NCBI RefSeq assembly: GCF_019278465.1
Contig: NZ_CP058983.1
Coordinates: 2,665,501 to 2,729,500 of the forward strand
Direction: 5' to 3'
DNA: 64,000 bases
Origin: Tenacibaculum sp. AHE14PA
Lineage (GTDB): Bacteria; Bacteroidota; Bacteroidia; Flavobacteriales; Flavobacteriaceae
The position numbers and the translations under genes are program-made. Every line of letters begins with the position of its first letter. Positions within the stretch are counted from its first letter, which is position 1. The notes below the pieces were generated by a model, which was given only the letters and a program-made list of their open reading frames with translations, was not told where the DNA came from and searched no databases. This document shows, in pieces, positions 24,871 to 28,987 of the stretch.

Positions 24871-25971
24871 TTATAAAATTTTTTGTTCGTTTTTGTAAAA
24901 AGTATCAGCCTGAAGTTTCATGAGATTACGAGCCATTTTTTGCTTATAATTGTATAATTCTTCTTCCGTTTTTAAACCGGAATATACTTTATTGTTGATA
25001 TCAATGTCTGTTTTTAAAATAGCTTCTCGTTGCTGTACTTGTTGCTGAATCCACGTTTTTATAATTGATTCCTGGTTTTCGAGTTTATAATCATATTCTC
25101 CTTTAGAGCTGATGAGTTTCGAGAAAATAGGCGCCGTTTCAATAGCTAAGAATAACAAGAAAATAAAGAAAGATGGCAACAAAGGAAGTTTATTTAAGGC
25201 CTCTATACGTGCCATTAATCCGTCGAAATTAGAAATTATGGGTTGGGTTTTCGTTTCTGTTAATTTCTGATTTTCTTGTAAGTTTACAATCGCTAATTCT
25301 TTTGCTTTAATTTTTTCGTTATTACTTTCCTTTAATAATTGTAGCTCAGCTAAAGCAGCATCGTGTTTGGCTCGTTTTTCTTTGTATACAGGGCCTTTTC
25401 CTAAACGCTTCGTTCCTTTTGTGCCTTCAGCTTCTGCAATATATGTTTCGTAAAGAGAATTTGTTTCGCCTTCTTTTGCAAGAATTTCATTTTTTAAAAC
25501 TTCAATTTCTAAATTAATATTGTTTATTTCGGGTGTAAACTGTTGCGCAATTTGCGATTTATTAGCTAACGTCATTTGATTTTTCTCGGTAAGCAAAACT
25601 TGATTTATTTCTTTTTCGAAAATCTTTAATTCCAGAGGTTTTGAAATTACCACAGCAATAATAAAAGCTAAAAGCAAACGCGGAATTACCTGTGCTATTT
25701 CTTGACGTTTAGATTCTTTTTTTTTGAGGGTTGAAACAATAAAACGATCTAAATTAAAGATTAGCAACCCCCAAATGAATCCAAAAAAGATAGCGGAGTA
25801 TAAGTTGTCGAAAACTGTAAATAAAGCATAGCTACAAGCAATGGTTGCCATTAGCGCTGTAAAAAAAACAGTAGCACCAATACCTGCGTATTTGTTTTGT
25901 TCTCCGTTAGCGCAATCTTTAATTAATTGTAAATCTACTCCCGAACAAATAAGGAAAAACTGTTTTAACAT
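24871..25971 (-). CDS. DUF4407 membrane protein
   Basis: A membrane protein of 366 residues in the DUF4407 family. Helices lie near 30-52, 57-76 and 92-110, then a long charged coiled-coil-like region (about 120-250, with repeated Lys, Glu and Leu) and a further helix near 265-285, then a soluble tail. The opening FFLICSGVDLQLIKDC and IWGLLIFNLDRFIVS are typical of the family. The function is unknown. It heads a minus-strand group with two DUF3857 proteins and is separated from the upstream M56 gene by a terminator. Confidence 0.85.
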   Translation of the reverse strand: MLKQFFLICSGVDLQLIKDCANGEQNKYAGIGATVFFTALMATIACSYALFTVFDNLYSAIFFGFIWGLLIFNLDRFIVSTLKKKESKRQEIAQVIPRLLLAFIIAVVISKPLELKIFEKEINQVLLTEKNQMTLANKSQIAQQFTPEINNINLEIEVLKNEILAKEGETNSLYETYIAEAEGTKGTKRLGKGPVYKEKRAKHDAALAELQLLKESNNEKIKAKELAIVNLQENQKLTETKTQPIISNFDGLMARIEALNKLPLLPSFFIFLLFLAIETAPIFSKLISSKGEYDYKLENQESIIKTWIQQQVQQREAILKTDIDINNKVYSGLKTEEELYNYKQKMARNLMKLQADTFYKNEQKIL

Positions 25972-26018: not shown

Positions 26019-26045
26019 AAAAAAAGCCTCAATTAAGAGGCTTTT
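26019..26045 (-). terminator. minus-strand terminator after the blaI-M56 operon
   Basis: Stem AAAAGCCTC/GAGGCTTTT (26022-26030 with 26037-26045) has a 6-nt loop, and on the minus strand a T run follows (A run at 26019-26025). It lies just past the stop of the frameshifted M56 remainder, which supports the longer gene model. Confidence 0.85.
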
Positions 26046-26055
26046 AACAATTTTT

Positions 26056-26222
26056 TTAATTTTCTTTTTGCATTAGCTTTATAATTTTGTCCTGACTTTT
26101 AGAGATATACATATTTAGAGTAGTTTTATCTTTGTCAGTATAAGCGGAACCATAATGATAATCTTTATTATTTTTAAGATGATTAAAAAAATCTTTTTTA
26201 GATGTTTTTTTATCCTCTATAA
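26056..26222 (-). pseudogene. out-of-frame C-terminal remainder of the M56 gene
   Basis: Downstream of the M56 stop, another frame stays open for about 55 codons to a TAA at 26056-26058, with no start codon. It reads as an ordinary Lys/Asp/Asn-rich protein tail (for example SKKDFFNHLKNNKDY and SKSQDKIIKLMQKEN). One extra A in the A7 run at 26225-26231 would join it to the M56 protein. It is best seen as the original C-terminus, cut off by an indel in the homopolymer, or reached by frameshifting, or a sequencing error. Confidence 0.55.
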
Positions 26223-28559
26223 AATAATTTTTTTAAACGTTTCATCTAGTTTTTTAAATTCAGTAGACTTGTTAGATGTTGGTTTTTCTTTTGTGTCTTT
26301 TCTCTTATAAACGTCGCCGGTTTCAGTATTTACATCTTCTACTATATGTACCTCGTCTTCGACTACCCAGTTGTTTTTTGTTTTTACTTGTGGTTTAGCA
26401 GCTAATTTCTCTAAGTTTACATCTTCTATTATATGCACTTCATTTCCAACTACCCATTTGTTTTTTGCCTTTTCTTTGGATGAAGTTAGAGTTTTAGATT
26501 TGTTGTTTTCTTTATTTGTTTTAAAAGAGTCAGAATTTGTTTTAGTAGTTATATAAATTTTTCCTGACCCATCTTTGTTTTTTTTAACGGAGGTAGTTTT
26601 AATGTCTTTTGGATGAATTTTATTTAAATTTTCATATGCGATTATTTTTCCGTTTAAATAAAAAGTTATGTTTTTAAAATTTTCATCTTTAATTATTTGT
26701 AAGTCGTTTTTTACTACCCAACCTTTTTTTATTGCAGGAGACGGAGGAGGAATATTGGATACCTCACCTTTCTTTACAATTGGAGCAAGTGGCGGTGGAA
26801 TATTAGATTTTTCACCTTTTTTAATTACTTTTATTGATGTAGGTTTTAACGTTGGGTAAATAGGGAAGTTAGGAAAAGGTTCTGCACTTTGTTTTTGTTT
26901 ATCATTTAACAAATTATAAAGCTGTTTTATTTTATTATGATCTTTTACCTTAATTATTCTTTTGTTTAAAGGCTTACTATTATACTTTTTACTTAATCTA
27001 TTGTATTCTGTAATTTCTTTTAGGGATGCTTTTTTATTATTAGGTTTTATAGTGTCTTTTTTATTTATGCTTAGTTTAAGAGCATCAATATCTTTTAATT
27101 TCAGCTTAACATCATCTACAACTGATTCAGAAGCAATACTTTGTTTTGAAGATTCTCTTTTAATAGGTGCATCTATATATTTTTTCTTTGGATCTTCTTT
27201 AATCGTTATCTCTTCAATTTTATACTCGTTTTTTAAGTAATTAAAAAAAGCTTTTTCTCTTTTCTTATTTTGATAATCAAAATATTTTTTAGTAGATAAG
27301 CTTGCCTGATGTTCTTGAGGAAAACGTTTACTGCGTGCATTTTTGTACACAAAACTAACAGAATAGTTAGAGAAATCTGAAGCTTTGTAATTATTAAGGA
27401 TTTCGTTTTTTACCACTTTTTCATCAATCCAAATTGCATACTCTTTGTTGTTCTTTAAATCTTCAATTAATTTTTGACTTGGTACTTTCTTTTTAGTTTT
27501 TAAAGGAGGTGGAGGAGGTAGTTGCGCTTTTTCTTTTTTTGTTAACTCATCAAATCGTTTTTTAACTTTGTTTCCGTTTTTATCTTTTTTAATGTTAAAA
27601 CTATTTCTGTAAAAATAACTTTTGTAAATTTCACTATCAGATAGTTTTCCTTCTTTTAAAGGAACATCCTCTGTAATTTCTTCGATAATTGTTTCTTGTG
27701 CTTCAACTCTTTCAGCAAACAAGAATACGAATCCTACTGTAACTGGTATTACAGCCAGTTTTTTTAATAAGACTTTGGTTGGTGAACTTTGTTTTGTCAT
27801 CATTAGTAATCTTTTTTTTGTTAATAAATAATTCAAATTACTGGCCAAGTAATAATCGTTGTTCCAAGCAGTTTTATTCAATAATAAATGTTGATACTCA
27901 GAAATATTTTTATGATTAGAAATCACTTTTGTGTCTGCTAAAAACTCGTGATTTAATTGTATTGTTTTTTTTAAGAAGTAAAAAATAGGGTTAAACCAAA
28001 AAACAATTTTTAAAACTTCAATAAGCAATACATCAAAAGTGTGTTTTTGTGTAGCATGTGTAAGTTCGTGCGTAAATAATTCTTCTTCAATTTTTTGCGA
28101 ATTATATGCTGTTTTATTGATGAAAATATAATTCCAAAATGTATGCGGACTTATTTTATCATCAACTAAAACTAATGTTGCTTTTTGATGCTTTATCGTT
28201 GTGTTTTTTCTTGTTTTCTGATAAATAGCAACTACATTTTTTATAAACCGAATTAATAAAATTATCGATATAAAAATGGAGAAGTATATGAAGTAATTAA
28301 AATAATTAACAGGTGTTTCAATGACTGCTGCGGTTTCAAAAACAATAGGTTCTTGTGTTGTTAGTTGCGCAGTTTCTATAATTTGTAAAGGAGCAACTTT
28401 TGTGTAAATTATACATAACGGCGCTAAAAATGAAAATAACACACTGCCTAATAAATAAAAACGATTGAATTTGTGCATTTTTTCTTGCTCTAATACCAAA
28501 TGATAAAAAAGTAGCAGTAGCGTTAAGCAAATTCCAGATTTTATGAAATAACTAATCAT
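26217..28559 (-). CDS. M56-family (BlaR1/MecR1-like) membrane metallopeptidase sensor
   Basis: The membrane partner of the BlaI-like repressor. BlaR1/MecR1 relatives sense a signal, classically beta-lactams, and inactivate the repressor by proteolysis. Helices lie near 5-25, 33-55 and 87-110; the zinc motif HELTH is at 164-168, then NHEFLAD at 203-209, followed by another helix near 260-280. There is no penicillin-binding sensor domain. Instead the C-terminal 490 residues hold Pro-rich segments (PPPPP near 345; two SNIPPP repeats) and three WVV-type repeats. The start overlaps the blaI stop (TAATG). The frame ends early in an A7 run, and about 55 further codons continue in another frame. Confidence 0.88.
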   Translation of the reverse strand: MISYFIKSGICLTLLLLFYHLVLEQEKMHKFNRFYLLGSVLFSFLAPLCIIYTKVAPLQIIETAQLTTQEPIVFETAAVIETPVNYFNYFIYFSIFISIILLIRFIKNVVAIYQKTRKNTTIKHQKATLVLVDDKISPHTFWNYIFINKTAYNSQKIEEELFTHELTHATQKHTFDVLLIEVLKIVFWFNPIFYFLKKTIQLNHEFLADTKVISNHKNISEYQHLLLNKTAWNNDYYLASNLNYLLTKKRLLMMTKQSSPTKVLLKKLAVIPVTVGFVFLFAERVEAQETIIEEITEDVPLKEGKLSDSEIYKSYFYRNSFNIKKDKNGNKVKKRFDELTKKEKAQLPPPPPLKTKKKVPSQKLIEDLKNNKEYAIWIDEKVVKNEILNNYKASDFSNYSVSFVYKNARSKRFPQEHQASLSTKKYFDYQNKKREKAFFNYLKNEYKIEEITIKEDPKKKYIDAPIKRESSKQSIASESVVDDVKLKLKDIDALKLSINKKDTIKPNNKKASLKEITEYNRLSKKYNSKPLNKRIIKVKDHNKIKQLYNLLNDKQKQSAEPFPNFPIYPTLKPTSIKVIKKGEKSNIPPPLAPIVKKGEVSNIPPPSPAIKKGWVVKNDLQIIKDENFKNITFYLNGKIIAYENLNKIHPKDIKTTSVKKNKDGSGKIYITTKTNSDSFKTNKENNKSKTLTSSKEKAKNKWVVGNEVHIIEDVNLEKLAAKPQVKTKNNWVVEDEVHIVEDVNTETGDVYKRKDTKEKPTSNKSTEFKKLDETFKKIIL

Positions 28560-28927
28560 TATTGTTGTTTTTTAATTTGACTATCGATAATTTTTTTTAA
28601 GCTTTCTAATTCAGAAACAGACAAATCGGTTTCTTTGGTAAAAAAAGAAGCAAACTGACTAGCAGAATCGTTAAAGAAATTTTTTATCAATCCGTTTACG
28701 TGTTTCGAGAAATAATCTGTTTTTTTAACTAACGGATAATATTCTCTAGATTTTCCGAATAAATTATAGGCAATAAAACCCTTATCATTCATTCGTTTTA
28801 ACAAAGTTGCTACCGTTGTTGTTGCTGGCTTAGGTTCTGGAAACTCCGCTAATAAATCTTTCATAAAAGCCTTTTCTAACTTCCATAATAATTGCATTAC
28901 TTGTTCTTCGGTTTTTGATAATTGCAT
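28559..28927 (-). CDS. BlaI/MecI/CopY-family transcriptional repressor
   Basis: A dimeric winged-helix repressor of 122 residues. The helix-turn-helix region begins LSKTEEQVMQLLWKLEKAFMK and continues with TTTVATLLKRMNDKGFI, the recognition helix of BlaI-type repressors. The C-terminal half is the helical dimerisation domain. It is coupled to the M56 gene by a TAATG overlap. Two dyads matching the TACA/TGTA type of BlaI operator lie over its own promoter, so it is probably autoregulated. No beta-lactamase gene is nearby, so the inducing signal is open. Confidence 0.93.
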   Translation of the reverse strand: MQLSKTEEQVMQLLWKLEKAFMKDLLAEFPEPKPATTTVATLLKRMNDKGFIAYNLFGKSREYYPLVKKTDYFSKHVNGLIKNFFNDSASQFASFFTKETDLSVSELESLKKIIDSQIKKQQ

Positions 28928-28945: not shown

Positions 28946-28987
28946 TCTACAAACATAGAGTAAATATTTTAATTCTACAAGTGTAGA
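28946..28987 (-). promoter_or_regulatory. blaI promoter with two overlapping operator dyads
   Basis: On the minus strand, TTG (28978-28980) and TATGTTTG (28950-28957) form a -33/-7 promoter with a 20-bp spacer. TCTACAAGTGTAGA (28974-28987; arms TCTACA/TGTAGA) covers the -33 box. A weaker version, TCTACAAACATAGA (28946-28959), covers the -7 box, with centres 28 bp apart. This is the expected layout for BlaI-type autorepression. Confidence 0.7.

Follow-up and report, generated by a model that had tools for sequence, protein, structure and literature searches.

We find that the gene for an M56 (BlaR1-like) membrane metalloprotease/sensor in Tenacibaculum sp. AHE14PA is interrupted close to its 3' end by a frame change at a run of seven A, and that the open frame beyond this run (hereafter, the extension) is, judged by its homology, the displaced natural C-terminus of the M56 protein. 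The best reading of the break is an ordinary one-base insertion or deletion at the A7 run, which we regard as reasonably probable. The analysis started from a window of 64,000 nucleotides, the whole stretch of DNA examined, and was extended to orthologous loci and to other genomes of the genus.

The M56 open reading frame (780 aa, 26217-28559) lies on the minus strand, as do its neighbours. It matches the Pfam family PF05569 with 45.7 bits, above the cut-off of 31, and carries the HExxH zinc motif as HELTH at residue 164. A BlaI/MecI-type repressor gene of 122 aa (28559-28927; Pfam PF03965, E = 9.6e-27) adjoins it on the upstream side. On the downstream side, a terminator-type hairpin stem is found at 26022-26045 (fold z = -3.89); the pattern scan lists this stem as a plus-strand one, and a T run follows it on the minus strand as well. 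Similar hairpins are found 3' of the M56 gene in many of the orthologous loci listed. Further downstream lies a DUF4407 gene (24871-25971; Pfam PF14362, E = 2.6e-101), which we used as a reference for spacing. Of the 89 orthologous loci fetched, 73 have a DUF4407 gene downstream of the BlaI/M56 pair, which suggests a lasting functional or positional link. In two of the loci (L175 from genome G144 and L196 from genome G012) the DUF4407 gene is itself split into two frames.

Direct reading of the sequence confirmed that the M56 frame ends just past a run of seven A. More specifically, the zero frame ends in ACG TTT AAA AAA ATT ATT TTA TAG, with the TAG stop at 26219-26217 and a run of exactly seven A at 26228-26234 (T7 on the plus strand). 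In the shifted frame, a stop at 26235-26233 precedes 58 open codons (26232-26059) and a TAA at 26058-26056, so that the extension with its stop occupies 26056-26232. Because stops in both frames bracket the site, the change of frame must fall within about 13 bases, from roughly 26232 to 26220, an interval that the A7 run overlaps. The original prediction had counted about 55 open codons in the other frame; the frame is indeed open, and the count is 58 codons, 57 of them past the run. Its placement of the end of the extension 10 bp ahead of the terminator agrees with our reading, the TAA ending at 26056 and the stem starting from 26045. Among 3,064 off-frame windows of 58 codons taken within long open reading frames, 11 were free of stops and none of those 11 was as coding-like as the extension; the openness of the shifted frame is beyond chance. 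Its codon usage, taken by itself, marks the extension as weakly coding: 6.7% of 1,532 true coding windows score as low. Given this weak score, the case for the extension rests on homology.

A tblastn search with the extension against 75 loci, some of which share a genome, returned two clear matches outside the window, L062 (47% identity, E = 8e-15) and L067 (49%, E = 1e-11), both from uncultured Tenacibaculum. When 166 genomes of the genus were searched, 10 had a match at E = 0.01 or better, the genome of the window included; four of these matches were strong (E = 5e-11 to 4e-14) and five were weak (E = 0.002 to 0.009). All four strong matches, at 47-49% identity, correspond to the in-frame C-terminus of an M56 orthologue and stand shortly ahead of a similar hairpin. 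The genomes taken to be those of L067 and L062 (G171 and G172) are among the four. G061 and G172 are near-sisters with an identical extension, leaving three distinct lineages. A profile built from the four orthologous C-termini, with the window left out, matches the extension of the window over nearly its full length (E = 3.7e-21). In genome G179, the module comes after a WVV-type repeat resembling those near the end of the short form in the window. Most orthologues are without this ending, the four strong matches coming from 166 genomes of which 93 hold an M56 match. The nearest named orthologue, that of T. haliotis (83% identity over residues 1-288), ends earlier and is without the extension. 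Among the 43 tails listed, we noticed by eye no relative that stops where the short form does and lacks a counterpart of the extension, and four relatives carry the extension in frame, in line with the original prediction.

The remark in that prediction that the extension has no start codon holds for its first 40 codons, which contain no ATG, GTG or TTG, and fails further on, codons 41 and 54 both being ATG. We rejected the idea that the shifted frame holds a gene of its own, given the absence of a start in these first 40 codons and the finding that all four strong relatives carry the extension as the end of the M56 protein.

Spacing to the DUF4407 gene points the same way. The gap from the M56 gene to the DUF4407 gene is 245 nt in the window if measured from the short stop and 84 nt if measured from the stop of the extension. 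For 63 of the 73 orthologues with a DUF4407 gene, the gap is at most 250 nt, with a median of 100 nt, and in only one of the 63 does it reach 200 nt or more (236 nt). The remaining 10 gaps exceed 250 nt; nine are found in broken-looking genes and one (L156) in an intact-looking gene with a small open reading frame after it. The short-form gap of 245 nt is thus rare, though not without precedent. Homology and gene spacing both support the view that the M56 gene naturally continues in the shifted frame.

The extension contains no stop and aligns to its relatives without internal gaps, and is thus little decayed. Identity between the window and its relatives is 54-64% in the core and 47-49% in the extension, and the corresponding values between intact pairs, with the near-sisters L198 and L199 left out, are 56-75% and 55-66%. 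Set against the intact pairs, the extension has diverged a little more than the core, which over 57 positions hints at relaxed constraint and so at a less recent change. Both the low coding score and the extra divergence are compatible with a recent change and also with an older end in slow decay.

What the short form lacks is only the last module, of about 57 residues; the M56 domain and the HELTH motif are retained. Lengths of the orthologues range from 358 to 977 aa among the 79 of 89 judged intact (nine broken genes and one cut by a contig end were left out), and an iterated profile that included the extension of the window found related modules inside the tails of other orthologues. These comparisons point to a conserved protease core with a strongly variable, fast-evolving tail in BlaI-paired M56 proteins. 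The lost module has no accepted Pfam match, the best being the Bclt model (E = 0.038; 14.3 bits against a cut-off of 25). AlphaFold predictions of the module from three sequences gave one model with a pLDDT of 88 and a beta-beta-alpha-beta-beta-alpha order, and four other models at 47-50. Foldseek of the module model against the PDB returned a best E of 3.2 and a further structure comparison a single row with Z = 2.1; the absence of better matches is uninformative on the fold. A TonB-plug-like character of the module was also considered; no such Pfam match was found in four full-length relatives. We infer that the short protein would remain a membrane protease of the M56 family whose tail is altered. 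This tail is presumably periplasmic, its alteration would perhaps alter sensing, and the truncated protein may well still work in part.

At least 9 of the 89 M56 orthologues fetched are broken independently, each at a place other than the A7 site of the window. In-frame stops are present in four of them (L131, L144, L151 and L200) and frameshifts in another four (L128, L140, L155 and L189, the last at a TA repeat), while L165 carries an insertion with a DDE transposase (Pfam PF13701, E = 5.5e-46). The nine were judged by eye from the frame translations of loci with gaps above 140 nt, and the count is a lower bound, as breaks near the gene end could be missed and 16 loci had no DUF4407 match from which to take a gap. 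Caution applies to L140, in which the BlaI gene is split too, and to L200, whose protein has unknown residues and a further frame change. Splits in the neighbouring genes were seen in one of 86 BlaI and two of 73 DUF4407 genes; the breaks in M56 genes show no clear excess over these neighbours (about 0.14 against 0.08 per 1,000 codons). In-frame stops and an insertion are not usual homopolymer errors, which indicates that real loss occurs in this gene. With at least 9 of 89 orthologues broken elsewhere, loss of parts of the M56 gene is a recurrent and ordinary event.

An ordinary mutation would account for the break as follows: replication slippage would change the length of the A run near the M56 3' end by one base, the frame would shift past the run so that translation would stop a few codons on, and the product would keep the M56 domain with HELTH and drop the last module of a fast-evolving tail. 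The change would then be present in the living genome, and it is probably recent. Among the four explanations first put forward (a phase-variable homopolymer, programmed slippage, a disabling mutation and a sequencing error), a fixed mutation is the best supported, although the word disabling is too strong where a variable tail has lost no more than its last module. The main rival is that a homopolymer error was left in the assembly and that the gene in the living cell is intact and full length, which we judge possible but unlikely. Long reads are typically prone to one-base errors in A/T runs, and the extension is little decayed; the relative Polaribacter sp. MSW5 (L140), broken in both its M56 and its BlaI gene, also looks like a case of assembly error. 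As a control, we ran a codon-model scan for frame changes over 464 kb of the genome (400 kb sampled plus the window), which flagged 51 sites at a penalty of 8 nats, 13 at 12 nats and 7 at 16 nats, with 414 gene calls at 12 nats. On inspection of the 13 sites flagged at 12 nats, none was convincingly broken; most lay at normal gene ends or at the start of a neighbour, and a few (such as L215, L220 and L221) were ambiguous. This tells against an assembly error, within the limits of the scan as a control: 58 coding codons score 14.9 on average (sd 6.7), so that by our estimate roughly two thirds of such breaks should exceed 12, and the extension of the window, scoring 5.4, left the M56 site unflagged at all three penalties. 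The assembly does not seem to be full of insertions and deletions, as far as can be told from a scan that is weak for short tails.

The two other explanations ask more of the A7 run itself. Reversible changes of its length, among the explanations first put forward, could let cells switch their sensor between a short-tailed and a long-tailed form, and the frame just past the run is intact; A/T runs of similar size can mutate often in bacteria (PMC2831843). A7 runs are, however, commonplace in this genome. The 377 sampled genes (390,777 coding bases) contain 296 A7, 86 A8 and 17 A9 runs, and 212 of the 377 have a run of seven or more A, so that the tract at the M56 site is not unusually long; the same M56 gene reads unbroken through three A8 runs and three further A7 runs. 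The position of the run at the very end of the gene also speaks against switching, the same study describing A/T tracts of 5 to 8 bases as tending toward the 5' end as they become longer (PMC2831843). Finally, none of the four extension-bearing relatives has a frame change at the site, where the longest A run is four in each; A7 runs occur a few codons further on in three relatives (L146, L198 and L199) and in the extension of the window. Phase variation is accordingly improbable in our estimation, and the fuller version of it, in which the A run is a reversible 3'-end switch that yields long- and short-tailed sensors with different signal specificity in one population, a C-terminal switch and not an on/off one, strikes us as quite improbable. 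Transcriptional or ribosomal slippage at A7 could instead restore the full protein in part of the product. Bacterial transcription does slip on A runs (PMC1088944), and the extension is free of stops. Synonymous resampling of the 377 genes, on the other side, placed A7 at neutrality (296 seen against 310.3 expected), with mild depletion of A8 (86 against 113.2), strong depletion of A9 (17 against 45.9) and no run of A10 or longer against about 23 expected. As avoidance begins only at A8-A9, A7 is below the slippage-prone length in this genome. The study on avoided A and T run lengths is reportedly by Baranov and colleagues. It gives nine as the avoided length in many genomes, adding that eight may suffice in some species (PMC1088944). 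Reading the codons at the site revealed no in-phase slippery heptamer of the X XXY YYZ type, and the fold that lies past the run does not stand out (z = -1.42, with 18 of 200 shuffles at least as stable). With the site and the run not conserved in the four extension-bearing orthologues either, slippage of this kind is very improbable. Programmed slippage or ribosomal frameshifting, which the original prediction had listed, is contradicted by the non-conserved site and the run length and was rejected on these together with the absent heptamer; a programmed or conserved switch at the M56 site is not supported. Our literature search found no paper on homopolymer frameshifts in Tenacibaculum.

In annotation, the M56 protein of the window is best labelled as frameshifted, its natural C-terminus being encoded in a different frame. 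If the run did switch, the locus would be a case of C-terminal sensor variation. Listeria monocytogenes inlA and Bacillus subtilis swrA are given as poly(A) phase-variation cases in the study cited above, and resemble the present locus in having an A run of similar length at the frame break (PMC2831843); the run of the window differs from them in its 3' position, in not being conserved and in the lack of evidence of switching. Transcriptional slippage in Thermus thermophilus dnaX likewise involves an A run late in the gene and two possible C-termini (PMC1088944), whereas dnaX has nine A's and the M56 gene seven, at a length that is unavoided in this genome and at a site that is not conserved.

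The pair as a whole resembles BlaI/BlaR1 and MecI/MecR1, with a BlaI-type repressor adjacent to an M56 protease bearing HExxH and with an operator-like TACANNTGTA upstream. TACANNTGTA resembles the MecI/BlaI operator. In the window, a motif search placed a single copy upstream of the repressor gene, the BlaI/MecI-type operator-like palindrome TACACTTGTA at 28976-28985. Across the orthologous loci, 79 of 87 (window included) have TACANNTGTA in the 150 nt ahead of blaI, against 0.5% of mononucleotide shuffles; 44 loci have one copy and 35 have two or more, all 35 with a spacing of 26-30 nt. The motif is thus a putative conserved autoregulation-type signal of the BlaI/M56 pair. Compared with BlaR1 itself, the M56 protein of the window scores 30.2 on the NCBIfam BlaR1 equivalog model, below the cut-off of 400, and its 780-aa open reading frame gave no Pfam match to a penicillin-binding sensor domain at E up to 1. 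Unlike BlaR1 and MecR1, it has a long variable tail in the place of that sensor domain.
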